Assembly: GCA_001599355.1 (NCBI GenBank)
Contig: BCGQ01000004.1
Span: forward strand, 999,249 to 1,063,248
From: Nakazawaea peltata
Lineage: Eukaryota > Ascomycota > Pichiomycetes > Alaninales > Pachysolenaceae
DNA: 64,000 nucleotides
Direction: 5' to 3'
The notes beneath the pieces were generated by a model that worked only from the letters and a program-made list of their open reading frames with translations, was not told the origin of the DNA and ran no database searches. A program made the position numbers and the translations under genes. This document shows, piece after piece, positions 1 to 59,625 of this stretch (position 1 is the stretch's first letter; the number at the start of each line of letters is the position of its first letter).

Positions 1-1334
1 CACATGACAAACGAAGTAGCGACAGATCTCAAACGTAATGGGAAAATTTCAGAACCTAACAAATATTGAATACTGTTCCAACCAATAGCCCAAGACAGAC
101 CAGAAAGATAGATCATCAGAATGGCAGATTGAGAGGCACCATAACTTGGTTCCAAACCCTTCAGTTGCTTGTCTTGCATAATCTTCAAGTAGATACCGAC
201 ATACAACAATGTAAGACATTGAGCAGTCATACCAATATACAAAGATCTTCTTCTACCGAGGAAATCAATAAGGAAGAAAGCACAGAAGTAAGCGGCAAAG
301 AACTTGACAATACCTAAGTAAGCAGTGTAAGCAAACTTATTAATCTTACCTTCGACACCAACTAATTCTAAAATAGTAGAAGTGTAGACAGTAACGGCGT
401 TGGCACCAGACCATTGAGACAAAATCTGGGCAGCACATGCAAGAAGGAATCTATAACGAACAGAAGGTGGAATAACCAACTCTTTCAAAAGAGTCCAAGC
501 AGAAGAACCAGCAACAGCTTCACGTTCCAGGTTCAATTGTTCGTAAACATCGTTCAACTCACCAATAACATATGGGTGGTCTTCTGGTAATTTACGAATC
601 TTAGAAAGAGCAGTAACAGCTTCCTTGTTACGACCAACTTTAACGAGCCAACGAGGACTCTCGTAACAGAAGATAGAACCAATACCGACCATCAGCAGAA
701 GCATCATCTTAACAGAAGTAGGAACTTGCCATTGGGCGTTGTTACTGTCGGAAATGTGAATAGCAGTACCCAAGTTACATAAATACAGCAACATGATACC
801 GAAGTAGACAGCACCGGAGAAGACACCGTTGGCTAAACCTCTAATACGCTTTGGAGCAACCTCAGAAAGGTAAGTTGGACCAATAACAGTAGTTTGACCA
901 ACAACCAAACCTTCAAGCAAACGACCAGCGTACAATTGTCCAACACTCTTAGAAGTAATTTGAATAATGACAAAGACAATCCATAAAATACAAACCATTT
1001 GCAAACAACGTTTACGTCCCAATTTATCGTTGGTGTAACCACCGATCAAAGCACCACCAATGGAACCTAACTGTACCATGGCCTTAATATTGGAAACCAA
1101 GTTATCTAATTGAGCTTCAGTCTTGTTTGGGTCTTCCAAATTAAACTGGTTGATGAAAGAAGTTTGAGAAGTGGCAGCACTAATATAACCTTCATCATAA
1201 CCTCTGGCACTTCCAAAAATACCAAACACGAATAAACACCACCATAAACGGAAATTATAAATTTCCTTAGGGGTACCGGAAGTGTCAAATTTTGACTTGA
1301 ACGACAGCCGGACTCTTTCAATAGGACCTGACAT
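1..1334 (-). CDS. MFS sugar/quinate-type permease, 3'-truncated by the window edge
   Basis: A major facilitator membrane transporter; substrate unknown, a sugar or quinate-like compound being likely. The minus-strand frame is open from ATG at 1334 to the left edge, giving the first 444 residues or so of a protein normally 500-550 long. Visible family signatures are an N-terminal SARGYDEGYIS segment, the loop motif GGYTNDKLGRKR, the PESPRW-like stretch YESPRWLVKVGR, and a late segment reading GWNSIQYLLGSEIFPLRLRS. The last is typical of the fungal quinate-permease (QutD) / YFL040W-like branch rather than Hxt hexose carriers. Several CTG codons lie in membrane segments; read as alanine they give SGASWAIGWNS, which resembles that branch. 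The promoter is shared with CGR1 across 2 kb. Exact substrate cannot be told from sequence. Confidence 0.9.
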   Translation of the reverse strand, partial: MSGPIERVRLSFKSKFDTSGTPKEIYNFRLWWCLFVFGIFGSARGYDEGYISAATSQTSFINQFNLEDPNKTEAQLDNLVSNIKAMVQLGSIGGALIGGYTNDKLGRKRCLQMVCILWIVFVIIQITSKSVGQLYAGRLLEGLVVGQTTVIGPTYLSEVAPKRIRGLANGVFSGAVYFGIMLLYLCNLGTAIHISDSNNAQWQVPTSVKMMLLLMVGIGSIFCYESPRWLVKVGRNKEAVTALSKIRKLPEDHPYVIGELNDVYEQLNLEREAVAGSSAWTLLKELVIPPSVRYRFLLACAAQILSQWSGANAVTVYTSTILELVGVEGKINKFAYTAYLGIVKFFAAYFCAFFLIDFLGRRRSLYIGMTAQCLTLLYVGIYLKIMQDKQLKGLEPSYGASQSAILMIYLSGLSWAIGWNSIQYLLGSEIFPLRLRSVATSFVM

Positions 1335-16294: not shown

Positions 16295-17434
16295 ATGCCA
16301 TCAGCAAACAAACCAATCAAAATATCTTCCCTTTGTGAGCTTTGTCACTCACGTAAAGCCGTCATGAAAAGACCCAAAAATATGATGAAACTTTGTAAAG
16401 AGTGTTTTTATCATGTCTTTGAGACCGAGATCCACCACACCATTACATCGAATAATTTATTCTATCCAGGAGAAAGCGTGGCCATAGGTGCTTCTGGAGG
16501 TAAAGATTCCACCGTACTTGCATATATCATGAAAATCTTGAATGAACGTTACAACTATGGGTTAAACCTTGTGTTGTTAAGTATAGACGAAGGTATAGTT
16601 GGATATAGAGATGATTCATTAGCTACAGTGAAGAGAAATCAACAACAATATGAAATGCCATTGGAGATTTTGTCGTATAAAGAGTTATATTCATGGTCTA
16701 TGGATGAAATTGTGGCTTGTGCCGGAATTCGTTCTTCTTGTACTTATTGTGGAGTACTTCGAAGACAGCTGTTGGATCGTGGAGCTGCTAAATTGAAGAT
16801 AAATCATGTAGTAACGGGACATAATGCTGATGACGTTGCTGAGACTGTATTGATGAACTTGTTACGTGGAGATACCGCCAGATTAGAAGGTTCCACCAAT
16901 ATCATGACATCGTCTGCTGGTTCTCCTATCAAGAGATCCAAACCATTCAAATATACTTATCAGAAGGAGATCGTTCTTTATGCTCATTATAAGAAGCTTG
17001 ATTATTTCTCCACTGAGTGTTCATATGCACCTGAAGCATTCAGAGGAACAGCTAGACTGCTTTTGAAGAGTTTGGAAGCTGTTCGTCCATCATGTATTAT
17101 AGATATTATTCACAGTGGAGAGAATTTCAAGTTGAAGGAAAGGAAGAAGAGGGAGAATAAGAAGACAGGCACCAAGACCAGGGCGAAGCAAGCACAAAGC
17201 TCAGCTCCTGATGCTGTTGAAATCCTTCCTAATGGTTCAGTTTCCTTACCACGTAAATTCGTTGATGGTAATACTTGTGAAAAGTGCGGTTACCTTTCTT
17301 CAAATAGAATCTGTAAAGCTTGTATATTACTTGAAGGTCTTGAAGCCAGTCGTGCAAAGGTTCAAATTGATAACGACACAAGTGTTGATGGTGCTGCTAA
17401 AATGACTAGAGTATTGGAGAGTTTGACATTTTAA
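16295..17434 (+). CDS. NCS6: cytoplasmic tRNA 2-thiolation protein Ncs6/Ctu1
   Basis: TtcA/TilS-type adenylating thiotransferase that, with Ncs2 and Urm1 as sulfur carrier, makes 2-thiouridine at the wobble base of tRNA Lys, Glu and Gln. 379 residues (S. cerevisiae 359). N-terminal zinc pairs at Cys14/Cys17 and Cys34/Cys37; PP-loop SGGKDST at 67-73; CxxC block SCTYCG followed by [12 protein letters not shown]; [44 protein letters not shown]-terminal zinc motif [16 protein letters not shown]. The two CTG codons fall at RRQ-x-LDRGA (16769-16771) and GTAR-x-LLKSLE (17057-17059), where orthologues have Ala or another small or polar residue. All catalytic cysteines are present. Confidence 0.97.
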
Positions 17435-17515: not shown

Positions 17516-20500
17516 TCACACAAAATAACTAGTCCAAAGTGCTCCCTCCAAATCCTGAAGCTCTTCTTGAGTAAAGAACTTGGAATCAATATGCCATGTA
17601 TCTTGTCTTGTCTTCTTAAACTGACTCAATGTCGATTTAGCAGTCTTACCTGTAACTCCACTCACATTAGAACTCTTGTTAGCCAATGTTGCAAGCAGAA
17701 TAGGAACCCATCTAGGGATAGGTGATATATATGGGAATGCATTAACTATAGCACTCAATCCAAGTGTAGACCCATGTAATTTCATTTGAACTTTCTCAGT
17801 CAATCCGTCTCTTGAGTATATTCTTTTATACTTGTTTAATGTCTTAAGGATCCGATCAAGAACCAGTTGAATATCAGAGTCAAGTGATGGTCCTGACCAA
17901 GTATGAATGATCGAGGTGACGATTTTCTCAGCCATTTCTCTCACATCCAAATTTCCATGGTAAAGTAATTTGAATACACATTCAAATATTTGTTCTTTCT
18001 GGGCATCATTCAATGATACAAACTGCTTCTGATAAAAGAATTGAATGAACCAACCCAACAGTAAGACGTTATGCCAGTTACTTGTCTTCTTATCGAATCC
18101 AACAATATAATCAACCACCAATTGTAATTGGTTTTGTCTGAATGGCACTGCTCCCATCATCACAAATATATGCAGAGGAGAGATTCCTGCTAACATACAA
18201 GCTTCTCTGAGTTCTGAAAGATGAAGAAGGAAGGGTAATATCTCGGAACATAAGTTAGGAACAAGTTCTAAACTTGCCGAAGTCATCATTATATTCCGGA
18301 GGAACTTAAGAAGTGTTCTAGATTTGTACATGTAAGGAGTTTTGACAATCTCTTGAGGAGATAAGTCAACGATTGAAAGTCTTTCAGATTCTATATCATC
18401 GAATACAGCTTTGAGTTTGGAGTTGAGGTGTGAATTACCACAATAATATCCAGATTCACAATCAACTGTATCATACTTCTTATGTTGATGATTTTCAAGG
18501 AACTTTCCCAGATCTTTCTCTGGAGAAATAGGTTCGATCATGAAAAGTGCCGTCATTAATGAAGCAATCTGTTCTCTGACCAGTTGATATGGATGATCCA
18601 AACTATCCAAACATCTCTCCAAATATTCATGAGTCAGAGGGAATCTGAATGACAACGAGACCACCAAATGCTTAATCATCATCAACCTTGACGCTTGTAA
18701 AACGGCTGAATCTGATTCTTTGTTGATATCCAAATCCAAAATCACTCCAGCCATCTTCGGATATCTTCTGATATCGACATTAGATGGAATCCACCATGAG
18801 AACACAGTCCAAATACCACGAGATTCAGGTGTAAGATCCTTCCCAAGGACTTTCTCAAGTAATGTAGCTGCATAATCGTCCACTTTAGCACCAAGATCGG
18901 CCGTAGTATACGATTTACATATAAGTAAACCAGCCAATATCTCACAAACCACCAAATGACTCTCTTTATCTTGAGGAATATAGATTTCATCAATAGCTTC
19001 GAGCCATAATTCAGGTGCAAAATTAGGAGTATACCCAGCTACCGATATATTCACAAGCAATGATACCAATCTTACGTCATTAGTATGGAATCCTCCATCT
19101 GTCTCAGCTTCTTGGACTAAGAAATGGACTATTTTTGAGATCAATTCCCGGTCAATTTGCTTTCCAAACAGAGCTAATAACTCATGTTCTCGAGGATGTA
19201 ATTCCATATTTGGAAGATGCTTATTTGCAATAACATCGATAGAGTCAGCCCAGAACAACCAACACTCATTGCATTTATTGTCAATAAAGAAGGTTGGGGA
19301 TTCAAAATTCTTCATCTCCTTACTGAACAGCAAGGTGTAATCGTCAGAGTCCGTTTGAATGGCTGTCGAAAGTCTCGGATCATTGTCCAGAACATAGCAT
19401 TTCTCCAAATCATAATCAAAAGTACTTAAACTCTTCAATTTATCTAAAATTCCATGGAATCCTTTCAAACAGAGTCTGAATATCGACGGATGAGAATCAA
19501 ACATCATGTTAAGCAACATTGGGAGAGCATCTTTATGAATGTTCAACTCCAAATCTGTCTGAAGATGGATAAGTAATTGTAAATTGAAGTAGTTTGTTTT
19601 CCAGAAATTAGCCGGCGAAACCAACAGCAACAAATCACGAGTCAAAACATGAAGTTGTTTCTTGAAAAGTTGACGTTTACCCAGTTTCAGTCTCCTTACC
19701 AGATCCACTTCAACCTCTACATAATTATCAACAGGTTTGATAGCGCCAACCGACACGTCATCCACTAGACAAACACTACTTGGGACTCTGAACTTCTTAA
19801 CAATATTACCAAACACGTTCGAAGCCAGAGCAGCAACAATCGCATTGGTTTTATCATCCACCAGTAAACATTTATTCAACAACGTGACAATCTCTGGCAA
19901 ATTCAGATAATCTGAAGGTAATTTCGACTTGAATCTCCTGGATCCAAGTACCATTAAAGCATGTTGAAGTACTTGATCATCATTAGATGCCATCGACTGC
20001 TTCAAAGTACCAATCAATTGTGTTATCAGTACCTTATAAGAACCAATGACCACTTTCATGGCATTATTCAAAGTCTGTACTGCAGCTGTTGAGACTCCAG
20101 GGTAGGGTGAACAAGCAAGAGACACAACATCACTGACTAAAAGCTTATCAGTGGAACTCATGAATCTATTTCCAGCGAAAAGCAGAACTCTATCGAGATG
20201 CTTCTGCTCGAGTAAGTACCCGAATCCAACACGAGTGAAAGGTTGTTTAAGTCTTCTCATGAATTGGAATGACTCAATGTAACCGAATCTCAAGGCGGAT
20301 GAACGTCCAATATTGAGGATACATTCATTTCCAACATCACAAATCCACACTTTGTAAGTTTGGAGTAACAATTGGAAGAGCTTGGTGTTGTTTGGGTGCA
20401 GTTTCTGACAATAGACAAACAACTCATGTAAGAATGAACCAATGTCATCACGAAGCTCATGAAGTCGACTATAATCAGTATTTGAATGTTTGATTGAAGG

Positions 20501-23500
20501 GATTTCTCCAAAGAAATAGTTTGAATAGTAAATTTTGCGGTTCTTAAAACTAAGAACAGCACCAAGAGCCTCTGCCACACCATCTTTAGAACCACTATGG
20601 GATGGAGAAGGAGTCAGTTTAGAAGAGACTGGGATTTCCGATGCCACTTTACCGGAATCATCATCAATAATTACATCTTCATCTAATTCATTAACGAGAT
20701 CATCATCTTCATCAGTTGGACTCGACAAACGACTGCCGAGGTTCGTGTTCAGGGTGGCAGTCTGCTCAGCCTGCGAAGGTGTAGATCCCCCAACTAACTC
20801 GCCTAAATTGTCAGTAGATCCTTGAGGTGTCCAATTACCTGCCTCCTTCCCAGCACCATCGACACTCTTCCTCAATAACAGTAACGAATCAAGTTTCCGT
20901 TTAAGAAGAGATGGTTTAGAAGCATCTTTCATTTCTTTGAACAGAGGATCTAATAAATGAGACACACCAGCAAGACAGTGGCCCAATATGATAATTTCAA
21001 GACCCAATTTATCAGCCGAATTATCTTGAGGTTCATCGTTCATTTCCAATCTAATTCTCTGCATGATCTCAGTACTCAACTTCTCGAATTTGTTCACTAC
21101 AAACAGCACCTCATATGAAGAGGGAACATGCCAATTGAACTTGAGGTTCTTATCGTCAAATCTCAGCTCAGAGAACTGATCACCTCCCCACAGTGTCTTG
21201 AACAGCTTCCCCTCAGGCACAAGAAGCGATTCTTGAAGCCTTGTGGAAGTCAATGTCGCAAAGAACTGGTAATACAAATGAGCCACAGCTTGTCCCACTA
21301 CCGGGTTGTTCACACTGGCCGAGAGAACCATAATGACATCTTCAACAGATTGATGGTATTGCATGACCAAACTTCCAGCCTCACTTATCGAGTATGCTAA
21401 TAATGTAGTATACCAATAAAGAGCTTGATCTCTTGGATGAACTTCATCACCATCTCTTGATTGACCAGCACCATTCTCGGATATCTCATCTTTGATTCTT
21501 TGCGAGAGATACTCCAAATAACGTGGGAATTCCTTAGGTTGTCTCTTGGACAGCAACAGATCCAGCGTGTCTCGTCTTATAATGGGAGCAACAAGAGCTC
21601 CTACACAATTGCTGACTGGGAATAGAGATTTTTCTGTGACAAAAGTGAAGATCTGATCGGCTAAATACTTGAAACACAGTGGAGACAGAGAATTGACGAT
21701 CAATGTGAAAGTTTTAGGAAGGAAAGTGACAATCTTCAGTTCAAGACCTTGAGACTTTTCAGGATCTGGAAGATTCTCAAGAAGAAGGAAGATTCTCCCA
21801 CAATAAGCGACAAGGAATTCTTGGAAGCATGTGGTCGATGATACAAATGCAAGTTGTTCATACTCAGGATCGTATTCAAAGCTTTGTGGTTGTGCGTCAG
21901 ACTCCTTCAGAGCATAGAATGACCTATCGAGGAACTCGATATGTTGTTGGGTGAAATCAAATGCAGCCGAAGCATCAACATCAATATCACTTTCAGTTTC
22001 ATCTTTGGATAAATCTGCAAACGGAATATATGAAGCAGTAACTGCAATGAAATGTAATGACTGTATGGATTTTACAAGATCATTAGAGTCAATTCCAGGT
22101 ACTAACATTGACATAATCCTCATGACATGTACCCTGTAAACAGGTCTTTCAACCATAAACCTCACGACAGCCGCAAGTTCCTTCAACACAGCCTTCAATC
22201 TATGGGTGGAATTAACCGACTCCAAAGATGAATAACAATCGACAATGATCTGATCTAATACATACTCCGGACTCCTATAACAGAGTAATGATAATGCACT
22301 GATATACAAATTGACGACATTATCTTTCTTTCCTTGAATTCCCGATTGGATTAGAGGGAGAAGGATCTCAGAAAAAGCTCTGTGAGTTGATGATGAAAGC
22401 TTGAGATGGTCTGGAAGTTGCGAGAGTGGCGATGGTCGAAGGTTATTCACGAGATCATCAGTTTCCATCTGCAGTCTTTTATGATATTGGGAGACAACTG
22501 AATGAATAAGACGAGAGAGGAGTGAAGTCCAAGGACCTGAATTCGAGGGATGAACAAATGAACGGATAGAATTGAAAAGAGACCGGAGTTTCTCGAGTAC
22601 CAGAGGTACCAGATCACTTCTCTTTCCATCATGGTCACCATTCACTATACTGAACACCACAGTATTGGCTAAAGTTTGGAAAAATGAACTGCCATGTTTA
22701 GACAGTTTCATAACTCCAATATTCAATGACAAAACAGTCCTTTGGAAGAGCATAACAAATTCGGATTCACTGAAAATTCCATAAGGACGGAACTGAACGA
22801 TCTCATTACCTCCTTCACGAGATGCTACGACTAAAGCATACTCAGCAGCCCTTGATAAAATAGCCACAAGGTGTAAATCGAGATGTTCCGATTGCAGAGA
22901 TGATGACCAAATATGGAAAAGACTGGGAATATAAGCCCTGATATCATTAGGAGCATATTTATGATCACCAACTGGCTTCTCCATATTCATAGGTAATAAT
23001 CCATAGAGACAACATACACTCAAGGTGCCATTTGAAGATGAAAATTTGGAAAGTACTTTGGAAACCACCTCTGGAATGCAATTTGGATCGAAAAATGGAT
23101 TGCAAAGGAAACATACAGTCAATAAACGTTTGAAACTTGACTTTTCATAGCTATCAAAAGCAGCATCTTCATGAGGAAAGTTTCTAATACATACTTTATA
23201 AGCGATATTCCAATCTAAAACAAGACCAGCCTGTTGAAGCAGTTCTTTCTCTTCTACTAACTTTTGAAACACCTCCAAAAAGATTGAAGGGAGTGTCCCT
23301 TGACCTTGAGCAAGACAAATTCCATAGTAAATCTTAACTAAAGCAGCTCTCAAAGTTAATGGGATAGGAAAGTCCATCTGGAGTAAAGTTTTCAACTCAA
23401 TTGACCAATGACGAGCATTGACAACGGCAGCAGCAGCAGATGTGATCTTATTCACCGGCGTAGATACTCCTGAACCCAATCCGATCTCATCATCATCATC

Positions 23501-24109
23501 TTCTTCCTCTCCATCTTCATCATCTTCGTCATCACCATCACTATCGAACTCATCACTTCCAGTATCGGATTCCGATTCCATAGATGTATCCATAGCATCA
23601 CCTGATAAGAGAGACAGCTTTGCCAGTTCAAATTCTTTAACGCTGATGGCCACGGCGCCCTGGAGATCCATCGACTGGACAGCAATATACAAATGAGATA
23701 CAATATGAGAGAGGTAGCGCGCTTTCTCGTGTAATGACTCGACGCGGTAAGGAAGATGGTTTTGCAGTAGCGGTGGCTCTGCTTGTAAACCCAGAAAGAG
23801 CGGATCGTCTGGGTTTTTAACGGCGCTCCACAGCTCCAGATCATCTTTGGGTAGATCGAGGGCGTACAGCGAAGCGCGCTGCAATTCCAATGACGAGTAA
23901 TGGTGTGAACTGGTACCTAAGTTGTCAGCAGAGCTACTGTTCATGCGACTTAGACTCAATTTGGAGCTACCGCCGTGCCCGCCACCGGTTTCCAGCGAAC
24001 TTGCTCCTTGGGGCATCGCTAAAGGAGAACTTTGCCTTGGGGAGAAGCTGAAGGAACCAGACTTGAGTTTCTTTTTGATGGGGATTGGTTGTCTTACTGG
24101 AGTGACCAT
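17516..24109 (-). CDS. BLM10: Blm10/PA200 proteasome activator
   Basis: Large HEAT-repeat protein that caps the 20S core particle and stimulates peptide and acetylated-histone degradation; nuclear/cytoplasmic. 2197 residues (S. cerevisiae 2143), single exon. Family blocks are visible near the middle of the N-terminal half (GLLPMNMEKPVGDHKY, IPSLFHIWSS, LHLVAILSRAAEYAL) and at the end (KSTLSQFKKTRQDTWHIDS). An acidic Asp/Glu run at roughly 185-225 and a low-complexity acidic region near 1115-1165 match poorly conserved insertions. The C-terminal three residues are Tyr-Phe-Val where S. cerevisiae Blm10 ends Tyr-Tyr-Ala; this motif docks in the alpha-ring pocket and opens the gate, so the penultimate Tyr-to-Phe change is notable. 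A G-rich stretch lies in the promoter. Confidence 0.95.
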   Translation of the reverse strand: MVTPVRQPIPIKKKLKSGSFSFSPRQSSPLAMPQGASSLETGGGHGGSSKLSLSRMNSSSADNLGTSSHHYSSLELQRASLYALDLPKDDLELWSAVKNPDDPLFLGLQAEPPLLQNHLPYRVESLHEKARYLSHIVSHLYIAVQSMDLQGAVAISVKEFELAKLSLLSGDAMDTSMESESDTGSDEFDSDGDDEDDEDGEEEDDDDEIGLGSGVSTPVNKITSAAAAVVNARHWSIELKTLLQMDFPIPLTLRAALVKIYYGICLAQGQGTLPSIFLEVFQKLVEEKELLQQAGLVLDWNIAYKVCIRNFPHEDAAFDSYEKSSFKRLLTVCFLCNPFFDPNCIPEVVSKVLSKFSSSNGTLSVCCLYGLLPMNMEKPVGDHKYAPNDIRAYIPSLFHIWSSSLQSEHLDLHLVAILSRAAEYALVVASREGGNEIVQFRPYGIFSESEFVMLFQRTVLSLNIGVMKLSKHGSSFFQTLANTVVFSIVNGDHDGKRSDLVPLVLEKLRSLFNSIRSFVHPSNSGPWTSLLSRLIHSVVSQYHKRLQMETDDLVNNLRPSPLSQLPDHLKLSSSTHRAFSEILLPLIQSGIQGKKDNVVNLYISALSLLCYRSPEYVLDQIIVDCYSSLESVNSTHRLKAVLKELAAVVRFMVERPVYRVHVMRIMSMLVPGIDSNDLVKSIQSLHFIAVTASYIPFADLSKDETESDIDVDASAAFDFTQQHIEFLDRSFYALKESDAQPQSFEYDPEYEQLAFVSSTTCFQEFLVAYCGRIFLLLENLPDPEKSQGLELKIVTFLPKTFTLIVNSLSPLCFKYLADQIFTFVTEKSLFPVSNCVGALVAPIIRRDTLDLLLSKRQPKEFPRYLEYLSQRIKDEISENGAGQSRDGDEVHPRDQALYWYTTLLAYSISEAGSLVMQYHQSVEDVIMVLSASVNNPVVGQAVAHLYYQFFATLTSTRLQESLLVPEGKLFKTLWGGDQFSELRFDDKNLKFNWHVPSSYEVLFVVNKFEKLSTEIMQRIRLEMNDEPQDNSADKLGLEIIILGHCLAGVSHLLDPLFKEMKDASKPSLLKRKLDSLLLLRKSVDGAGKEAGNWTPQGSTDNLGELVGGSTPSQAEQTATLNTNLGSRLSSPTDEDDDLVNELDEDVIIDDDSGKVASEIPVSSKLTPSPSHSGSKDGVAEALGAVLSFKNRKIYYSNYFFGEIPSIKHSNTDYSRLHELRDDIGSFLHELFVYCQKLHPNNTKLFQLLLQTYKVWICDVGNECILNIGRSSALRFGYIESFQFMRRLKQPFTRVGFGYLLEQKHLDRVLLFAGNRFMSSTDKLLVSDVVSLACSPYPGVSTAAVQTLNNAMKVVIGSYKVLITQLIGTLKQSMASNDDQVLQHALMVLGSRRFKSKLPSDYLNLPEIVTLLNKCLLVDDKTNAIVAALASNVFGNIVKKFRVPSSVCLVDDVSVGAIKPVDNYVEVEVDLVRRLKLGKRQLFKKQLHVLTRDLLLLVSPANFWKTNYFNLQLLIHLQTDLELNIHKDALPMLLNMMFDSHPSIFRLCLKGFHGILDKLKSLSTFDYDLEKCYVLDNDPRLSTAIQTDSDDYTLLFSKEMKNFESPTFFIDNKCNECWLFWADSIDVIANKHLPNMELHPREHELLALFGKQIDRELISKIVHFLVQEAETDGGFHTNDVRLVSLLVNISVAGYTPNFAPELWLEAIDEIYIPQDKESHLVVCEILAGLLICKSYTTADLGAKVDDYAATLLEKVLGKDLTPESRGIWTVFSWWIPSNVDIRRYPKMAGVILDLDINKESDSAVLQASRLMMIKHLVVSLSFRFPLTHEYLERCLDSLDHPYQLVREQIASLMTALFMIEPISPEKDLGKFLENHQHKKYDTVDCESGYYCGNSHLNSKLKAVFDDIESERLSIVDLSPQEIVKTPYMYKSRTLLKFLRNIMMTSASLELVPNLCSEILPFLLHLSELREACMLAGISPLHIFVMMGAVPFRQNQLQLVVDYIVGFDKKTSNWHNVLLLGWFIQFFYQKQFVSLNDAQKEQIFECVFKLLYHGNLDVREMAEKIVTSIIHTWSGPSLDSDIQLVLDRILKTLNKYKRIYSRDGLTEKVQMKLHGSTLGLSAIVNAFPYISPIPRWVPILLATLANKSSNVSGVTGKTAKSTLSQFKKTRQDTWHIDSKFFTQEELQDLEGALWTSYFV

Positions 24110-35665: not shown

Positions 35666-38600
35666 CTAAATACGAAGTAATCTCAAACTGAAAACAGTCT
35701 CCTCCATCTCTTGTTCCTCCTCGATGATAACCTTCTTATCTTCAACGGAACTAGACCATTCAGCCAATGGATATTTACAACTCTTTGTCAAGAATTCCAG
35801 GTTAGCTTCGATAGCAGCAGCTAATCCGACAGTGTCCTTAACAATCTTGTACTCAACTTGAACATCATCAGTTTGTTGCAAGTTAGCACTCTTTCTCAAC
35901 TTTTGGATTCTGTTCAACAAGTTTCTAGCGGTACCTTCGGTCTTCAAATCGTCATAAAGTTGGATATCCAAAATGATTAATACGTCATCAACTCTGAATT
36001 CGTAACCTTTAGAGACGGCAGACTCTGGCAATCCTCTAACAACTGTCAAATCCTCACTGACCAATTCAATACCATCGACATTGATCTTACCACTAGAGAC
36101 AAAGTCTTGGACTTCTTGAGAAGTAACCTTAGGCAAAGCATCCTTAACCTTCTTGGCGTCTTTCTTCAATTTCTTACCCAAAACTGGCCAATCAGCAACA
36201 CACTTATATTCAACACCGTACTTGGCCTCATCAGAAGTGATGATCAAGTTTCTGACGTTCAACTCCTCCAAGATATACTTGCTAAGAGACTTGACATCGT
36301 CCAAATAATCTTGATCACTGTGCAAAACAACCAACTCCTTCAATGGAGTCTTCAAAGAAATGGTCTTCTTCTCTCTGATATTTCTACCCAACTCAATGAC
36401 CTTTTGCATTCTAGAAACAGCAGTCTCGATCTTCAGGTCAAACAAAGCTTCGTTGACAGTTGGGAATCTCAAGAAATGAACACATCCCAAATCATCTCCC
36501 AATGCATTACTCTTCAAGAATTCCTCGGAGAATAATGGCTTCATTTGTTGATAGATGTTATCGGACAAGAATGGAGCAAATGGAGCCATAGCACGAGTCA
36601 AAGTGAACAAAGCTTCGGCCAAGGTGTTCAAAGCACAGATGGTGTCCTTCTCACCATCTTCACCCTTTAATCTCTTTCTGTTGAAACGAATGTACCAGTT
36701 GGTCAAATCGTCAATCAAACGCAACAATCTTGGAACAACGGTATACAATCTGTAACCTTCCATTTCTTGAAGGATGAATTTGATTAATGATTGAACAGAG
36801 GCCAATAACCATCTGTCCATGACATTGTCGGATCTGATAGTTGGGTCATATTGGAACTTGATGTCAGAAACCTTCAGTAAAAGAGCAACTTGTTGTTCCA
36901 AAAACTTGTAAGAGTTGAACCATGGCAACAAAACCTTAGACAAAACTTCTTTGACACCTTCCTCTTTGAACTTCAAAGTCTCGGCTCTAATGACAGGAGA
37001 ACTAATCAAATACAATCTCAATGGATCAGCACCATATTTATCAAGGATAAGACCTGGGTCAGGATAATTCTTCAATCTCTTAGACATCTTTTTACCATCA
37101 GCAGCCAAGACAATACCGGAAACAATGACATTCTTATAAGGAGCAGTGTTGAATAAGTGAGTACCCAAGACAGTCAAAGTGTAGAACCAACCTCTAGTTT
37201 GATCTAAACCTTCAGAAATGAAGTTGGCTGGGAAAGAATCGTGGAAAGTATCCTTCTTCTCGAATGGATAATGCTTAGAAGCATAAGGCATAGAACCACT
37301 CTCGAACCAACAGTCGAAAACTTCCTCAATTCTCTTCAATTGACCTTTACCTTGCTTAGAAGGAATGGTGATATGATCGATGAACTCTCTGTGAATATCG
37401 GTGATATCCGAGACACCCGACAACTCCTTCAACTCGTCGATAGATCCAATACATACGACTTCTTCTAAATCGTCACTAACCCATAATGGGATTGGAGTAC
37501 CCCAGTATCTGTTTCTGGAAACGTTCCAATCACGAGCATTAGCAATCCAATTAGAGAATCTCTTCTCCTTGACTACATTTGGAACCCAGTGAGTACGTTC
37601 GACGTTCTTCAACATATCAGGAACAATGTCTTTGACTCTGATGAACCATGAAGGAACGGCTCTGTAGATCAATGGAGTATCAGATCTCCAACAGAATGGA
37701 TAACTATGGCGAATTTGAGTAGCCAATAACATGTTACCGGTCTCGGTCAAATGCTTGATAATCTTGGAGTCGGCATCCTTGACGTAAACACCTTCCCATA
37801 AGGTGACTTCCTTGGTGAACTTACCATTGTCATCGACTGGGTTTGGAGGAGGGTTCTTGTCGTCGATAATACCGTTCTTAACGGCAACGTTATAATCCTC
37901 TTCACCAAAGGCTGGAGCTTGGTGAACGATACCAGTACCACTCTCGTCAGAAACGTACTCGGCACCCAATACTTTGAAACCTCTTCCCTTGAAACGAGAC
38001 TCAAAGTATGGGAATAATGGTTTATACTCGGTACCAATCAAATCCAGACCCTTGATCTTCTCAACGATCTTGAATTTCTCATTAGCTGGCTTCTTATACA
38101 AAGTCTTGATCAATTTCTCCAATAAAATGAAGTATTTGTCCTTGGTCTCATCGTAGATCTTGACATATTCGAACTCTGGGTTAACACACAAGGCAATATT
38201 AGATGGTAAAGTCCATGGAGTAGTAGTCCAAGCGACTAAATAAGTCTTTTCTTGACCTAAAACTTCAAATCCAACAGTAACAGCTGGATCATTTACATCT
38301 TTATAGTTCTCTTGGGCCTCAAAATTGGATAAAGAAGTGGTCAATCCGGTAGAATATGGCATAACACGATGTCCTCTGTAAACAGCATCCTTCTCGTACA
38401 ACTGCTTGAAGACCCACCAACAAGACTCCATGAATTCAGGGTACAAAGTCTTATAATCGTTGTCGAAATCGATCCATCTACCCATTCTACCAATGGTACG
38501 TCTCCATTCGGAAGCGTATCTCATGACAATGGATCTACATTCGGCATTATACTTGTCGATACCCATCTCCATCACGTCCAGTTTACCCTTGATACCCAAC

Positions 38601-38896
38601 TTCTTGTCAATCTCGTGTTCGACAGGTAAACCATGAGTATCCCAACCGAATCTTCTTTCGACGTGGTGACCGGTCATGGTGGCGTATCTTGGGATGATAT
38701 CCTTAATGGTGGAAGCCAAAATATGACCATAATGAGGGGCACCTGTGGCAAAAGGAGGTCCATCATAGAAGGCAAATGGCTTCATATCTTTAGTCAATTC
38801 CAAACATTTGTGGAAGGCGTTGATTTCTTCCCAATGAGCAAGGATTCTTTCCTCTTCTCCTGGGAAGGAGAAAGGTTTTGTTTCTTGTTCAGTCAT
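35666..38896 (-). CDS. ILS1: cytoplasmic isoleucyl-tRNA synthetase
   Basis: Class I synthetase that charges tRNA-Ile. 1076 residues (S. cerevisiae 1072). HIGH-type motif in PHYGHILASTIKD near residue 55; editing domain with TTTPWTLPSN and GTGIVHQAPAFGEEDY; KMSKR at the second signature (ADGKKMSKRLKNYPDPG); tRNA anticodon-binding domain with DELTNWYIRFNRKRLKG-like block and GRNIREKKTISLKTPLK. Only five in-frame CTG codons in 1076: 35798, 36434, 36875, 38045 and 38579 on the plus-strand coordinate. None falls on a conserved Leu; S. cerevisiae has Phe, Glu, Lys, Ser and Asp there. Such avoidance fits reassigned, rare CTG. Divergent from ALG3. Confidence 0.97.
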   Translation of the reverse strand: MTEQETKPFSFPGEEERILAHWEEINAFHKCLELTKDMKPFAFYDGPPFATGAPHYGHILASTIKDIIPRYATMTGHHVERRFGWDTHGLPVEHEIDKKLGIKGKLDVMEMGIDKYNAECRSIVMRYASEWRRTIGRMGRWIDFDNDYKTLYPEFMESCWWVFKQLYEKDAVYRGHRVMPYSTGLTTSLSNFEAQENYKDVNDPAVTVGFEVLGQEKTYLVAWTTTPWTLPSNIALCVNPEFEYVKIYDETKDKYFILLEKLIKTLYKKPANEKFKIVEKIKGLDLIGTEYKPLFPYFESRFKGRGFKVLGAEYVSDESGTGIVHQAPAFGEEDYNVAVKNGIIDDKNPPPNPVDDNGKFTKEVTLWEGVYVKDADSKIIKHLTETGNMLLATQIRHSYPFCWRSDTPLIYRAVPSWFIRVKDIVPDMLKNVERTHWVPNVVKEKRFSNWIANARDWNVSRNRYWGTPIPLWVSDDLEEVVCIGSIDELKELSGVSDITDIHREFIDHITIPSKQGKGQLKRIEEVFDCWFESGSMPYASKHYPFEKKDTFHDSFPANFISEGLDQTRGWFYTLTVLGTHLFNTAPYKNVIVSGIVLAADGKKMSKRLKNYPDPGLILDKYGADPLRLYLISSPVIRAETLKFKEEGVKEVLSKVLLPWFNSYKFLEQQVALLLKVSDIKFQYDPTIRSDNVMDRWLLASVQSLIKFILQEMEGYRLYTVVPRLLRLIDDLTNWYIRFNRKRLKGEDGEKDTICALNTLAEALFTLTRAMAPFAPFLSDNIYQQMKPLFSEEFLKSNALGDDLGCVHFLRFPTVNEALFDLKIETAVSRMQKVIELGRNIREKKTISLKTPLKELVVLHSDQDYLDDVKSLSKYILEELNVRNLIITSDEAKYGVEYKCVADWPVLGKKLKKDAKKVKDALPKVTSQEVQDFVSSGKINVDGIELVSEDLTVVRGLPESAVSKGYEFRVDDVLIILDIQLYDDLKTEGTARNLLNRIQKLRKSANLQQTDDVQVEYKIVKDTVGLAAAIEANLEFLTKSCKYPLAEWSSSVEDKKVIIEEEQEMEETVFSLRLLRI

Positions 38897-39288: not shown

Positions 39289-40725
39289 ATGGCAACTGCT
39301 GAGTCAAGTTCTCCTCCACACATTACGCCCCTGGAGACTCGTCCCCCACTCACTCTCAAAAATGTCCTCAATGATATTTACAACGGCTGCTACCTAGTCA
39401 TTTTCGACCCTCGTTGCTCCTTCATCGCCTTTGTACTAGTGATGCTTTTCGAGTCGATCGCCTTAAAAGTGATCATCTCAATGATTCCTTACACGGAGAT
39501 CGACTTTTCAACTTATATGCAACAAATTGGTATCATCCGTAACTTTGATGAACTTGATTATCGCCATATTTCAGGCGATACTGGCCCATTGGTATACCCA
39601 CTGGGTCACGTGCTGGTGTATGAGTTCTTATATTGGATGTCAGGAGGAGGAGCAGACATCGTTCCTGTCCAAGATTTCTTCAGATACGTATATTTGGCCA
39701 CTCATTTATTAACCATAACCTTATATTTCCAAGTATTTGGCTCCACTAAACTGCCATTGCAACCTTGGCTGATCTACTTACTTCTGCTTTCCAAAAGATT
39801 ACATTCCATCTATGTCTTACGCTTATTTAACGATTGTTTTACCTCTATTGCAACTATAGGAACAATATTGGTCTTAACTATGGCCGCGCAGTTCAAGAAA
39901 AACTCCTCCTTCATCAGCTATATATTGACTTTGGTGGCTCTGGATTTATACAGTCTTGCGATATCTGTTAAAATGAATGCTCTCTTGTATTTGCCTGGAT
40001 TTCTTGTCTGTGTCTACTTTTTATGTGATGGAAATTTGCTCAAGGTGATTTTACCTATATTAATTGGTGTCTTTGTTCAAGTTATGACCGCTTTTAAGTT
40101 TTTATTACCATTTGAAACTTCTGAGGAACTGCTGGAAATTAGATGGGCCTATTTAAATCAACTGTTCAATTTCAAAAGGAAGTTCCTCTATAAATGGACG
40201 GTCAATTGGAAATTTTTGAGTGTCGAATTTTTCCAAAGCGACGAATTCCATAAACTCCTCTTTGTTCTTCATTTAGTGGCATTATTACTCTTCTTTATGA
40301 CTAAAATGTTGACCCCAAGTAATCTCGGAGGATCTTTGGTTCGTATTTTGGGAAATTCGATCCTCAATCCGTTCAAATCAAATTTGCCTAAATCGAACAT
40401 AATTTATGACCCAAAGAGAGCTCCAATGTTCATCTTTGTTGCTATGACTATGTCAAATTTGATTGGTGTTCTCTTTGCTCGTTCTTTACATTATCAATTT
40501 CTCTCATGGTATTTCCATACATTACCTCTGATATTACTTCTTAATAAGTTCCCAATGGTGATGAATGTTGTATTGTTTGGAGTTAATGAATATGCTTGGA
40601 ATGTTTATCCTGCTACTCTGATTAGTTCTGGATTATTAATAGGTACGTTAAGTATATCGATAATTGGTGTATGGATGAATAGGGAACTTTTCATTGGTAA
40701 TATTGAAGAGAAGAAGAATAAATAG
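39289..40725 (+). CDS. ALG3: Alg3, Dol-P-Man:Man5GlcNAc2-PP-Dol alpha-1,3-mannosyltransferase
   Basis: ER multi-pass GT58 enzyme that adds the first dolichol-phosphate-mannose-dependent mannose to the N-glycan precursor. 478 residues (S. cerevisiae 458). Family hallmarks: TEIDFSTYMQQI, GDTGPLVYPxGHV, SKRLHSIYVLRLFNDCF, SVKMNALLYLPG, FLYKWTVNWKFLS, FARSLHYQFLSWYFHTLP and a C-terminal NEYAWNVYPAT. A KKNK tail matches an ER-retrieval type signal. The codon in GPLVYP-x-GHV (39601-39603) is CTG, where fungi, animals and plants almost always have Ala. Another at 40162 is in NQ-x-FNFKR, where orthologues have Ala or Ser. About ten hydrophobic spans. Confidence 0.97.
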   Translation: MATAESSSPPHITPLETRPPLTLKNVLNDIYNGCYLVIFDPRCSFIAFVLVMLFESIALKVIISMIPYTEIDFSTYMQQIGIIRNFDELDYRHISGDTGPLVYPLGHVLVYEFLYWMSGGGADIVPVQDFFRYVYLATHLLTITLYFQVFGSTKLPLQPWLIYLLLLSKRLHSIYVLRLFNDCFTSIATIGTILVLTMAAQFKKNSSFISYILTLVALDLYSLAISVKMNALLYLPGFLVCVYFLCDGNLLKVILPILIGVFVQVMTAFKFLLPFETSEELLEIRWAYLNQLFNFKRKFLYKWTVNWKFLSVEFFQSDEFHKLLFVLHLVALLLFFMTKMLTPSNLGGSLVRILGNSILNPFKSNLPKSNIIYDPKRAPMFIFVAMTMSNLIGVLFARSLHYQFLSWYFHTLPLILLLNKFPMVMNVVLFGVNEYAWNVYPATLISSGLLIGTLSISIIGVWMNRELFIGNIEEKKNK

Positions 40726-46489: not shown

Positions 46490-46781
46490 GATTGATTATT
46501 CTTGTAGCCTTCTAACCGTCTAACCGCCAACTACACCCAGTCAGTTTAAGGTTGTTTATTTTTTGGGAGAAAAATTTTACGAGTGGTCGTGGATGGAATA
46601 TCAAATTGAGATTACTAGATGAGGTATTACTGCATTTGGTAATACGTACTTTATAATTACTTAATTAGGCATTACTATATCGAGCAATACAGATTCGTTT
46701 AATTGCTGGATTGGGAATTTCCGTTTCCGGTAATCGTCTTCCCCCGTATACTACATCCATTTACTATATCATATTTATTGT

Positions 46782-49700
46782 TCAAGCTATAATAGCCTTC
46801 AATACCTCACTAGAACTAACACTTCCAGCATATGTAGCCTCCAAATGCTTCAACAATGCAATAACATTGCTCTTCAACTCATCCTCATCTCCAAATTGTT
46901 TCAATCTATCTACATTCTCCTCTCTTCCCAAAGTACTCTCGGAGATCAACTTCTCTCTTTGGAATTCCTTGACAAAGACACCTTCGAAGATCTTGATGAC
47001 TTGTGGAGATTGGGAGATGATCAACTCGTTGTTTTGTTGGTACAATTGTAAGATCAACTTGAAGATTGGAACGTTCTCCTCGAACAGCAGTTCCAATGGT
47101 AAATGTTGTAATAACTCAGGCAAGATGGCATTCAATGGAACGGCATTTTGAGCTCTAAGAGCCATTCTAGAGACACAACCACAAGCATTAGCAAATGATC
47201 TGTTGATGACATCACCGGTCTCTTCGTCACCATCCTCGTTCTTCAACAGCTCTTTATCAGCCTTGAGCAATAACTTGGACAAACTTTGTAAAATTGTAGC
47301 ATAAGATCCACTCAAATCTTGCAGAGAGTTTTGGACAATGATACCAACACCGTACAGAGCGTTACCACGGACTTCCAAAGACTTGTCATGAGCCAATTTG
47401 TGGGCAAATAATTCCAAGAACTCTTGTTCGTATGGGTTTTGCAGTTTCAATCCGTTACAGATCTCCAGTAAAGCACCAATGACACTGACTCTCATAACCT
47501 TAGACTTGGACTTGGATTGAGCAACAACGATGTCCTTGAAAGAACCGAAAATCTTGGTGAAGTCACCAGCTAACAGCTCAGATAAGTGGACAAGAACCTC
47601 CAAAGTGGAATCGAAGATAACAGCATCGGTCTCACTGGTGTCTTCATCAGATGGGATCTCATCGGCATCCAATTGACAGGTGTGTTCCTTCTTCAAGAGT
47701 AACATCAATTGAACACATAAGGACTCCAATTCAGACAGATCTCCATTGTCGATGATGGCAATGGCACCCATCTTCTTGATGTTATCGGACAAGTTGGTCA
47801 ACAAGGCAGAAACCATGGAGATTTCAAACTCCTCTTGCAACAAGTTGATGGTTTGAGAACGAGCTTCCTTGATGATCAGCAAGATGTTGTCCTCAACATA
47901 ACTCGATTGAGGAACTCCCTTTGGATATTTGAATCCTTCTGGTTGCAGAGCATCGTACATAGCACCGACAATCTTCCATAAAGCATTGGAAGCAGCTTCT
48001 CTCATACCGTAAGAAGTTTCGATTTGTTCCTTCAAAACAACGATGGAAGGTTCAACGTATTGAGCGAAAGCCTTCTTAGTTCCAATGGCCAATTCAGCCA
48101 AAGCAATAGAAGCGATCTCCTTCTCGATGGTGATACCGGTGTTGACGGTAAGTTTGTTTTCCAAAGCTTCCTCGTCCAATTCGGCAGGATCTTCGTCATC
48201 CTCGTCCAAATTGAATTGGAATTCCTCTTGTTGAAGACAGGTGAAGATCAGAGGAACAATGTTGTCCAAGAATCCAGAGAATCCTTCACCGTAGACCTTA
48301 GCCAAGTTACAAATGAACAGGAATCCAGACTCTCTCAATCTAGCATTGTCGGTTGACAAAGATTCGTAAGCGGCTTGAATCAAAGGCTCAGCAACAGAAC
48401 TGAAGGACTCAGATCCAACAGCTCTACCCATAGTGGAGATGTTCTCGAAAGTGACAGCCTTCAACTCGATGTCGTCCTCAGTAAGATTCTCGGTAACTGG
48501 GATATCGACAAATCTTTGCAAATATTGGATGGAGTTAGGGAAGAATGGCAAGAAGGACTTACCAGCAGCATAAGCAGTAGAACCAATCAGAGAGACAATG
48601 GCAGATTTCAATGAACTGGATTGCAGACCATCCAACATGTGGAACAATTTGTTCATCAAAGGCTCCAAATATTGACCGACAACCTCGTGGTTCATGAACT
48701 CGATCAAACCATCAAGAGCATAGGTAGCATATTTGTAGATCATGACACTAGTGGCAGAATCGATGATAGCGATGATCAAAGGCAACAATTCTTCATGGTA
48801 TTCGGCAACAGCATCTTGTAACTCGGAAGTCAATTGCAGAACACATCTCAAAGCAGCGACTCTGACGATCAACTCGTTATCCTTCAAACCAGCAATAACC
48901 AATTGAATGATCTTTGGCAATTGAGTACTGAAATAGTCTGGGGCACCACTGGAAGTGACACCGATACTCAAAAGAGCCAGTCTTCTCTCGAAGAAGTTTT
49001 GAGATCCGAATAAACTACTCAATTGCTCGAAGATAGGCAGGATAACTTGAGATGGAGGCAACTCGGCGGACAACATGGCCAATAATCTAAGCAGCAAAGA
49101 CAGAGGGGCATTTTCCTCATTTTCATTCTCCTCATCTTCATTATTCAACTCATCATCGATGTCAATTTCCTCGGAAGCGACACGTAAAGCTCCAATGGTC
49201 AATTCTGGACCGATTTTAGCTTGGTTGACCTTCAGTTTTCTGAAATTGACGGCGGAAATCAAGAATTGCAAAGCCATTACACGGAATTCCTCATCAACGT
49301 CCTTATTCATGGCGATCTCCAACATCATTTTAATGATTGGAATCAATTGGTTGCCTACTAATTTGTTATCGATCAACAAAATGTTGTTGAAGACATTGAA
49401 GACGTTCTTCAGTGAGTCAGAATCGGAGCTTTGAAGAACATTTTGCAAAACATTGACCATGGATGGGATCAAAGAGCTGAATTTAGCAGCAAGATTGTCA
49501 TCAATCTCCTCACTTTCCTCAATATAAGTGGAAACAGAATCCAACAGCAAAAGAGAAGTGACTCTGACATCCAAAGAAGAGGCATCGTTCAAAGTAACAG
49601 AGAACAAGTTCAAGATATCGGCGGTATGTTTACCTAACTCGGATACTCCGGTCTCCAAGAGACACAACAAGATGAAAATACTGGTCTCCTTGACCTTGAC

Positions 49701-50108
49701 ATCCAGGTTAGTACAACCGGAAACCAAAGAAGGTAACAAATCTGGCCAAGCATTCTCATAAAGATCGGTCTCTCCAATGGCAGCTACCAATCTCAGGGTG
49801 GAATGTCTGATCAACTTGGTCTGTTCTTGGAAAGTGGACTCCAAAAGATGAGATCTGATTTGAGATTTCAAACCCAGGTCAACCGAAGACCAGTACTTTG
49901 GAACCAATTTTCTCAGCTCAACGGCACTTAATTGTTTGATCTGATTATCGGCGTTAGTCCTCAAAATTTGAATAAGCGCCGGTAACAGCTGGGCGTTCTT
50001 GTAGAAGTCGTTGGCCAACTTCTGCGAGGCGCTCTTAACAGTTGCAGAATCTGGAACAGTAACCAACTTCAAGGTTTCCTCTAATGAAGAAACGAAGGCT
50101 TGGTCCAT
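46782..50108 (-). CDS. KAP123: karyopherin beta Kap123 (importin-4)
   Basis: HEAT-repeat nuclear import receptor for ribosomal proteins and histones H3/H4. 1108 residues (S. cerevisiae 1113), colinear throughout. Markers: VExRKLVPKYW near residue 65, IRHSTxRLVAAIGE, GPELTIGALRVASEEIDIDDELNNEDE acidic loop, ELPPSQV, NFFERR, YATYALDGLIEFM, RLRESGF-x-FICNLAKVYGE, QFNLDEDDED, DKSLEVRGNA-x-YGVG and a tail ESTLGREENVDRLKQF. About 28 in-frame CTG codons occur; by recalled alignment roughly twelve fall on Ala and six on Ser in S. cerevisiae, none on a conserved Leu. Promoter: two GAAAAATTTT tracts (50197, 50219) and GCACGAC at 50254-50260. Confidence 0.97.
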   Translation of the reverse strand: MDQAFVSSLEETLKLVTVPDSATVKSASQKLANDFYKNAQLLPALIQILRTNADNQIKQLSAVELRKLVPKYWSSVDLGLKSQIRSHLLESTFQEQTKLIRHSTLRLVAAIGETDLYENAWPDLLPSLVSGCTNLDVKVKETSIFILLCLLETGVSELGKHTADILNLFSVTLNDASSLDVRVTSLLLLDSVSTYIEESEEIDDNLAAKFSSLIPSMVNVLQNVLQSSDSDSLKNVFNVFNNILLIDNKLVGNQLIPIIKMMLEIAMNKDVDEEFRVMALQFLISAVNFRKLKVNQAKIGPELTIGALRVASEEIDIDDELNNEDEENENEENAPLSLLLRLLAMLSAELPPSQVILPIFEQLSSLFGSQNFFERRLALLSIGVTSSGAPDYFSTQLPKIIQLVIAGLKDNELIVRVAALRCVLQLTSELQDAVAEYHEELLPLIIAIIDSATSVMIYKYATYALDGLIEFMNHEVVGQYLEPLMNKLFHMLDGLQSSSLKSAIVSLIGSTAYAAGKSFLPFFPNSIQYLQRFVDIPVTENLTEDDIELKAVTFENISTMGRAVGSESFSSVAEPLIQAAYESLSTDNARLRESGFLFICNLAKVYGEGFSGFLDNIVPLIFTCLQQEEFQFNLDEDDEDPAELDEEALENKLTVNTGITIEKEIASIALAELAIGTKKAFAQYVEPSIVVLKEQIETSYGMREAASNALWKIVGAMYDALQPEGFKYPKGVPQSSYVEDNILLIIKEARSQTINLLQEEFEISMVSALLTNLSDNIKKMGAIAIIDNGDLSELESLCVQLMLLLKKEHTCQLDADEIPSDEDTSETDAVIFDSTLEVLVHLSELLAGDFTKIFGSFKDIVVAQSKSKSKVMRVSVIGALLEICNGLKLQNPYEQEFLELFAHKLAHDKSLEVRGNALYGVGIIVQNSLQDLSGSYATILQSLSKLLLKADKELLKNEDGDEETGDVINRSFANACGCVSRMALRAQNAVPLNAILPELLQHLPLELLFEENVPIFKLILQLYQQNNELIISQSPQVIKIFEGVFVKEFQREKLISESTLGREENVDRLKQFGDEDELKSNVIALLKHLEATYAGSVSSSEVLKAIIA

Positions 50109-58140: not shown

Positions 58141-59625
58141 TTATACTTTTTGGTGCAGATGGATATTAATTGACTCGATGCTATGATCATCACCCGTTTT
58201 TGGAGAAGATCCGGTCAAGACTTCGATAGTTCCCTGCTTGGATTCGATGGAATCGGCAATAGTTCTCAATTGAGAAGCATATTGCTTGAAGAATTCGTCA
58301 TAATTATTACCAAATTCATCCAAAGTCTCGGCCATCTCATATAAATCCATACCCATTTGTTCACCTCCTTCTGGAGCTCTTAAATGGAAACCTGGGATTT
58401 TGTCAACGATGAACAAGATAATAGCCGTGAAAACTGCACACCATAACATAATGGCAATGATACCAGCGAGTTGGTAACCTAACTGGATGAAATTACCATC
58501 AATCCAACCACCTGGAATATCGGAATAACCGTCATAACTGGCAATTTCTTTGGAAGCGAAAATACCAGTCAAAACACCTCCACAGATACCTCCAATACCA
58601 TGGACTACACCAGAATGACTGTAGTCATCGATACGTACCCATTTGTTGAAATTGAAGCAACCACGACAAACCAAGGCGGTGATTATAGCACTGACTGCGG
58701 CACCCCAAGGCTTTACATAACCACAAGATGGAGTAATATTGACTAAACCGATAATTACACCATCACATGCGGCGAAAGCCGAGAATTTCTTAGTTATCAG
58801 GTAGTCCATCATAGTATAAGTGAACATGGCAAAGACAGAGGCCAATAAAGTGTTGGTGAAAATGTAACCTGTTCTTGTGTTGACGGCTAATAAAGTACCG
58901 GTGTTGAAACAGAACCAGGCACCCCAAATCAAGGTAACACCAATAAAGGTACTTAATACCGAATGAGGTTTAGCAGCTGGAACTCCTCCCTTAGCCCAGT
59001 CTTGTCTTTTACCCAAGAACCAAGAATAAACTAAACTCAGTACACCAGATGAGATATGAACTGGAGTACCACCCAGGAAATCCAAAGCACCGAGACTTAA
59101 TAACCATCCGTTTGGACCCCAGACCCAGTATGCTGTTGGAGCGTAAACTACAATAGTCCAAATGGCACCGACAAGTAAACTAGGAAGAAGTCTTCCTCTC
59201 TCACCAATAGCACCGACGAAAATCTGTACGGTACAAACTGGGAAGAAATTGTTGAAGACAAAGTTTACTACGGAAGGGATAGTGGCTCCGTCATAAGCAC
59301 CTTTAGCTTGTTCATTATGAAGAGCAGCATGAGATAAATCTCCAAGCAACACAGAAGTGGAGGTTTCAGATATAGCCAAAGAGTACCCAATCAAATACCA
59401 TACAATTGTTACAACAGCTGTAATCATATACGATTGGAATAAGACTTGGACCACGTTTTTTCTTCTTAAAACACCAGTATAGTATAAAGCGATACCTGGA
59501 GTGATCAAAAAAACCATTACAGCAGAGAACATGACGTAGACCATGTCGGAAGTGACATAGTCTGCAGTCTGCTCGGTAAGATCTGCTCTCTTTTGGAGCA
59601 GAAGAAGGGGGTAATTTGACAGCAT
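58141..59625 (-). CDS. Mep/Amt-family ammonium permease
   Basis: Plasma-membrane ammonium transporter, 494 residues, about eleven membrane spans with a cytoplasmic C-terminal tail. Family motifs: ITPGIALYYTGVLRRKNVV, LGALDFLGGTPVHISSGV, DGVIIGLVNITPSCGYV, and DDYSHSGVVHGIGGICGGVLTGIF. The conserved Asp (LDF), the first twin-His (PVHISSG) and the second (VHGIGG) are all present, so the pore looks functional; S. cerevisiae Mep1 and Mep3 lack the first His. The pattern FNTGTLLAVNTRTGYIF departs from the Mep2 FNGGS, so the sub-family is not assigned. Promoter carries a TATA box and a cluster of GATA sites, fitting nitrogen-catabolite control. A 48-bp gap separates it from MTW1. Confidence 0.93.
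   Translation of the reverse strand: MLSNYPLLLLQKRADLTEQTADYVTSDMVYVMFSAVMVFLITPGIALYYTGVLRRKNVVQVLFQSYMITAVVTIVWYLIGYSLAISETSTSVLLGDLSHAALHNEQAKGAYDGATIPSVVNFVFNNFFPVCTVQIFVGAIGERGRLLPSLLVGAIWTIVVYAPTAYWVWGPNGWLLSLGALDFLGGTPVHISSGVLSLVYSWFLGKRQDWAKGGVPAAKPHSVLSTFIGVTLIWGAWFCFNTGTLLAVNTRTGYIFTNTLLASVFAMFTYTMMDYLITKKFSAFAACDGVIIGLVNITPSCGYVKPWGAAVSAIITALVCRGCFNFNKWVRIDDYSHSGVVHGIGGICGGVLTGIFASKEIASYDGYSDIPGGWIDGNFIQLGYQLAGIIAIMLWCAVFTAIILFIVDKIPGFHLRAPEGGEQMGMDLYEMAETLDEFGNNYDEFFKQYASQLRTIADSIESKQGTIEVLTGSSPKTGDDHSIESINIHLHQKV

Follow-up and report, generated by a model that had tools for sequence, protein, structure and literature searches.

Genes of the window and residues facing CTG

We analyzed the meaning of the codon CUG (CTG in the DNA) in a stretch of 64,000 nucleotides from contig BCGQ01000004.1 (positions 999,249 to 1,063,248 of the forward strand), hereafter referred to as the window. 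An initial annotation, made from the raw sequence, had proposed that CUG is reassigned to alanine in this genome. The window contains 26 open reading frames (ORFs) of at least 150 codons, of which 20 were included in the first reading and 18 in the codon counts. Based on Pfam matches or solved homologues, the genes were named as a sugar porter, eIF3a, Sec18, Ncs6, Blm10, UGGT, ClpX, isoleucyl-tRNA synthetase (IleRS), Alg3, a LisH protein, Gle2, Kap123, a SWIRM protein, Mis12/Mtw1, an ammonium transporter and Rpa43. The Pfam search returned no match for two further ORFs of the window.

To profile the residues facing CTG, nine of these genes were aligned to ten solved references (one per gene, Blm10 being represented by its two halves) with CTG masked, and 134 of the 165 CTG codons could be aligned. 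These columns contained Ala (27), Ser (14), Val (10), Lys (9), Gln (8), Asp (8), Glu, Asn and Arg (7 each) and Thr, Ile and Leu (6 each), the rest being other residues. A codon-to-residue profile, which the initial annotation had suggested as a check, ranked alanine as the best of the 20 residues for CTG (9.4 bits), followed by serine (5.3 bits) and then glutamine (-17.0 bits). Every other codon was masked and scored in the same way, and the standard residue was the best one for 57 of the 60 other codons. The three misses were CGG (7 sites), CTA (7 sites) and TGC (10 sites), for which too few sites were available.

Under the standard code, the observed pattern would have arisen by chance or by misalignment, and CTG columns should resemble those of the other leucine codons. 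Within the same alignments, Leu was found opposite TTA, TTG, CTT and CTC in 50% of the columns (40–54% each) against 4% for CTG. Gene-matched draws of true leucine codons contained 57–78 Leu (95% range) against the six observed, and none of 5000 draws matched the low Leu count or the high Ala count of the CTG columns. The empirical likelihood was highest for Ala (-542.4), followed by Ser (-554.4) and Thr (-576.0), with Leu outside the top eight, and the bootstrap median of the difference between Ala and Leu was 146 bits. The genes were also read with translation tables 1, 12 and 26 and compared to Pfam, summing 25 domains (one per region, E ≤ ~1e-10), and Ala exceeded Leu by 88.5 bits in this sum. 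A slight lean to leucine was observed in UGGT (Leu in three of 14 columns, with a margin of 1.1 bits over Ala), in 4 of the 25 Pfam domains, which scored higher when CTG was read as Leu than as Ala, and with the prokaryotic NcsA model for Ncs6, whose scores spread within 1 bit (172.4, 171.7 and 171.4 bits as Leu, Ala and Ser, respectively). All the pooled alignment tests exclude CUG as leucine. Judging from these alignments, we consider a non-leucine reading to be close to certain and the probability that the standard code applies to be negligible.

Alanine against serine

The choice between alanine and serine is the only real contest. CUG is read as serine in the CUG-Ser1 clade (table 12), and a basal member of this clade such as Babjeviella or Cephaloascus would be expected to yield mixed columns, because Codetta made no CUG call in these two genera (PMC8629427). 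The same paper indicates that Codetta agrees with the published distribution of codes in 453 of 462 yeasts and made no call in nine, two of which are basal CUG-Ser species; we therefore treated serine as the serious rival.

Using residue tables measured on the alanine and serine codons of the same alignments, Ala was favored over Ser by 12 bits. Gene-matched draws of true serine codons contained 29–50 Ser (95% range); a count as low as the 14 observed was absent from all 5000 draws, of which 1.3% contained at least 27 Ala. In comparison, gene-matched true alanine codons faced 9–23 Ser (95% range), which fits the observed number. When limiting the analysis to the 13 sites with at least six of eight flanking residues identical, the columns contained 8 Ala, 2 Ser, 1 Val, 1 Thr, 1 Ile and no Leu. 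When the proportion of unconserved sites was fitted as well (44%), Ala was favored over Ser by 9.7 bits. None of 1000 simulated serine sets, diluted in the same manner, reached this lead, and 22.5% of the simulated alanine sets were found at or below it. Finally, more remote references were used as a second comparison for three genes; their 57 columns, which overlap largely with the CTG codons counted above and are hence not independent, presented Ala in 12, Ser in 4 and Leu in 4 cases and favored Ala over Ser by 8.1 bits.

The domain models point in the same direction. Across the 25 Pfam domains, the sum favored Ala over Ser by 25.0 bits, with 13 domains for Ala and two ties, and the difference was zero or below in 0.2% of the bootstraps over domains. 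Most of this margin was contributed by the sugar porter (+8.1), Alg3 (+4.4), the ammonium transporter (+3.5), the SWIRM domain (+3.4) and a UGGT thioredoxin domain (+3.1). Adding nine weaker domains yielded a sum of 23.8 bits (zero or below in 1.3% of the bootstraps). The best NCBIfam models also scored higher with Ala than with Ser for the sugar porter (+8.5), amt (+3.3), CDC48 (+1.4) and NcsA (+0.3).

Several results weigh against alanine or speak for serine. Ten of the 25 Pfam domains prefer Ser over Ala, as do the NCBIfam models ileS and ClpX (~2 bits each). Gene by gene, Kap123 is neutral when taken alone (Ala over Ser by 0.2 bits), Blm10 prefers Ser by 6.2 bits (both halves) and ClpX by 0.6 bits. 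The lead of Ala over Ser was zero or below in 13% of the bootstraps over sites, 8% of those over genes and 5.9% of those under the variable-site model. A classifier based on neighboring context, used without homologues, was correct in 32–42% of the cases for three classes and was dropped as a test for its lack of power; in its raw sums, the contexts of Lys, Leu, Glu and Ser all came out ahead of that of Ala. In addition, the depletion of CTA in the window is reminiscent of the CUG-Ser clades, for which such a depletion is described in PMC6701816, a study from which the five CUG-Ala species were excluded. The 27 Ala found under CTG are also fewer than expected from gene-matched alanine codons (mean 43; 95% range 34–54), so that conservation is lower at CTG sites than at usual alanine sites. 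This shortfall is consistent with published observations that CUG tends to occupy unimportant sites in CUG-Ala yeasts. Considering the deficit of Ser relative to true serine codons, the simulations and the Pfam sum, we regard serine as a very unlikely reading of CUG in this window and alanine as the preferred one.

We also considered that CUG might be ambiguous, being translated mainly as alanine with a regular share of serine or leucine through competing or mischarged tRNAs. A three-part mixture without background indeed yielded 64% Ala, 33% Ser and 4% Leu. When unconserved sites were included, the weight of Leu fell to 0 (0 bits) and a Ser weight of 0.13 added 0.64 bits, a gain that was equalled or exceeded in 16% of 200 simulated pure alanine sets; the column data are blind to a misreading of a few per cent. 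Regular ambiguity appears even less probable than a plain serine code. A Gln component gained ~3.6 bits over Ala with background, and this component may be a trace of the origin of these codons, CAG to CTG being a single mutation.

Individual CTG sites

The ammonium transporter provides what appears, from the sequence comparisons, to be the most telling single CTG site. A scan with the ammonium transporter sequence alone recovered no relatives; a profile scan of genome contigs then found prokaryotic homologues, and of the 589 stretches that it confirmed the best 80 were counted. Codon 184, which lies in the motif DF-x-GG, faces Ala in all 80 of them; one search pattern spans this codon and allows only Ala or Leu there, and Ala was also found in 21 of the 21 loci lacking this pattern. 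Ala is also present at this site in Mep2 (5fuf) and in all five plasmid homologues that were aligned, from six retrieved out of 106 records. At codon 196, the same plasmid homologues present Ala (4) and Ser (1), and Mep2 5fuf presents Ala (see Table 1 for the prokaryotic counts). Codon 276 counts for leucine and against alanine: it is mostly Ile, Leu or Val (49 of the 80 prokaryotic homologues), with Leu in 17 of 80. The remaining three CTG codons of this gene are located beyond the core shared with the homologues, in parts to which loci align rarely or not at all. Plasmid homologues of the sugar porter were kept out of the counts (2 of 222 records aligned).

The initial annotation had listed ten CTG sites as positions that are alanine in orthologues, and all ten coordinates do correspond to in-frame CTG codons. 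Nine of them have a solved homologue, and the nearest one carries Ala at seven (Kap123 codons 65, 105, 507 and 597, Alg3 codon 105 and Sec18 codons 366 and 492); the claim did not hold for Kap123 codons 377 and 918, where Ser is found. The remaining site lies in Ncs6 (16769), where the NcsA scores given above do not separate the three residues, and alanine is not confirmed there. For Kap123 as a whole, the tally of the initial annotation (about 12 Ala and 6 Ser among 28 CTG codons, with hardly any Leu) was close to the 10 Ala, 7 Ser and 0 Leu measured in the 26 columns aligned with 5vch, which we take to be K. lactis Kap123. The coordinates of these sites and of the genes that carry them are compiled in Table 1.

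Table 1. Coordinates of CTG-containing genes and of individual CTG sites in the window
Feature	Position	Strand	CTG codons	Homologues and scores
Sugar porter, truncated at window end	3..1334	-	8	Pfam Sugar_tr 265.6 / 270.5 / 278.6 bits as Leu / Ser / Ala
eIF3a, main exon	9307..12069	-	26, many in charged coiled coil	phmmer match to eIF3a 4uer; 3 Ala, 2 Ser, 0 Leu of 22 aligned columns
Sec18 (NSF)	13729..15987	-	11	phmmer to Sec18 9cru 1029 bits; 4 Ala, 0 Ser, 0 Leu of 11 columns
Sec18 codons 366, 492	14890, 14512	-		Ala in Sec18 chain, Ser in NSF
Ncs6	16295..17434	+	2, including site 16769	Without close reference
Blm10 (proteasome activator)	17516..24109	-	49	3 Ala, 1 Ser, 2 Leu of 38 aligned columns
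Isoleucyl-tRNA synthetase	35666..38896	-	5 in 1076 codons	
Alg3	39289..40725	+	12	Pfam ALG3 381.2 / 388.4 / 392.8 bits as Leu / Ser / Ala
Alg3 codon 105, GPLVYP-x-GHV	39601	+		Ala in 9s6r
Kap123 (importin beta-3/4 family)	46782..50108	-	28	phmmer to Kap123 5vch 1137 bits
Kap123 codon 918, RGNA-x-YG	47355..47357	-		Ser in 5vch, Ile in importin-4; no support for Ala
Kap123 codon 597, SGF-x-FI	48318..48320	-		Ala in 5vch, Ser in importin-4
Kap123 codon 507, VS-x-IGS	48588..48590	-		Ala in 5vch and importin-4
Kap123 codon 377, FERR-x	48978..48980	-		Ser in 5vch; Ala in importin-4 (more distant)
Kap123 codon 105, RHST-x-R	49794..49796	-		Ala in 5vch and importin-4
Kap123 codon 65, VE-x-RKLV	49914..49916	-		Ala in 5vch, Thr in importin-4
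Ammonium transporter (Mep/Amt)	58141..59625	-	6	Pfam Ammonium_transp 307.3 / 309.1 / 312.6 bits as Leu / Ser / Ala
Ammonium transporter codon 196	59038..59040	-		Ala 53, Ser 24, Leu 0 of 80 prokaryotic homologues
Ammonium transporter codon 184, DF-x-GG	59074..59076	-		Ala in 80 of 80 prokaryotic homologues counted

Codon usage and genetic code of the window

CTG represents 257 of the 13,346 codons in the 18 ORFs and is the most common codon of the CTN box (41%, against 3–16% for the G-ending codon in seven other boxes). The statement of the initial annotation that CTG is rare holds for the IleRS gene, on which it was based, but not for the window. Read as alanine, CTG would constitute about a quarter of the alanine codons (257 against 828 GCN), and GCG is nearly absent (25). 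This abundance is at odds with a published remark (PMC5951914) that CUG is relatively rare in the clades with a changed code. The codon CTA was found 16 times in 13,346 codons, which amounts to 4% of CTT, CTC and CTA together; across seven other boxes, the share of the A-ending codon ranges from 8 to 48%. Its seven aligned sites face Tyr (2) and Ala, Ile, Lys, Val and Leu (1 each), which is too few to judge its meaning. It is conceivable, but unlikely, that the window comes from a CUG-Ala yeast in which the reassigned codon has become a heavily used alanine codon, far above GCG, and which either represents a lineage distinct from the clade described so far or retains a little serine reading, CTA being abandoned.

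Other features of the window were also observed. A (Q-x)n tract of the LisH gene (minus strand) is built of Gln codons alternating with CTG, which also lies inside a run of alanine codons of this gene (42966-43028 and 42480-42515); with CTG read as Ala, these segments become QA and poly-Ala tracts. In eIF3a (12069-12209, minus strand), an apparent first exon (MAPVNNFRPDATLK, ~12168-12209) is followed by an intron that begins with GTAAGT, carries a TACTAAC branch site and leads into the main ORF; this intron suggests nuclear yeast DNA with spliceosomal splicing. The LisH gene, Gle2 and Kap123 are grouped on one strand (41172-50108) and Sec18 adjoins eIF3a (9307-15987), arrangements that probably match the S. 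cerevisiae gene orders FLO8-GLE2-KAP123 and SEC18-RPG1. The UGGT gene (25132-29574, minus strand) encodes a full glycosyltransferase domain (Pfam Glyco_transf_24, 481 bits); the only S. cerevisiae counterpart that we know of is the divergent Kre5. An ORF at 32734-33717 (minus strand) presents Ser-Gly-Asp repeats and a threonine-rich stretch in its translation, and perhaps encodes a cell-wall protein. A tRNA scan at the ordinary setting with introns detected no tRNA genes in the 64-kb window; a permissive scan returned 367 calls, all of which were judged spurious and disregarded.

Overall, our results suggest that the window belongs to the nuclear genome of a budding yeast whose CUG codons encode alanine (NCBI table 26), with a probability of roughly 0.94 based on the sequence comparisons. 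The pooled columns, the Pfam sums and the ammonium-transporter site agree with the earlier statement that alanine fits better than serine and leucine hardly at all, and neither leucine nor serine was found to dominate the CTG columns. The residue pattern under CTG likewise supports table 26 as the right translation table, as had been advised. The CUG-Ala reassignment is already known and published, and the reading of the raw sequence is correct in this respect.

The window shares several properties with the CUG-Ala code: its CTG columns are best explained as Ala, its other well-sampled codons are standard and its CTG codons occupy poorly conserved sites. With the CUG-Ser1 code of Candida albicans and its relatives it shares a CUG codon that has no leucine meaning and a depletion of CTA, but its pooled columns prefer Ala over Ser. 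The CUG-Ser2 clade (Ascoidea, Saccharomycopsis), which changed the same codon, reads it as serine with a residual leucine tRNA in most species; the window differs from this clade by its abundant CTG codons and by the null weight of Leu in its columns. According to Krassowski et al. 2018 (PMC5951914), the alanine clade comprises Nakazawaea, Peterozyma and Pachysolen, and CUG tends toward unimportant sites in these yeasts. The same source describes the loss of tRNA-Leu(CAG) in this clade and the change of the anticodon of a tRNA-Ala gene to CAG. By analogy with this clade, the ancestral tRNA-Leu(CAG) would have been lost in the genome analyzed here and CUG would be read by a tRNA-Ala that acquired a CAG anticodon by mutation. 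Such a tRNA would presumably still be charged with alanine, because alanyl-tRNA synthetase needs no particular anticodon bases; alanyl- and seryl-tRNA synthetases are presented as the two enzymes without such a need (PMC5951914).

Changes of sense codons in nuclear genomes are extremely rare, and the meaning of CUG governs the reading of each protein in the genome. Translating these genes with table 1 would make ~2% of the residues wrong (257 of 13,346 codons). The value of this finding lies in the correct annotation of the genome and in a case of abundant CTG that is relevant to the spread of a captured codon following its reassignment.

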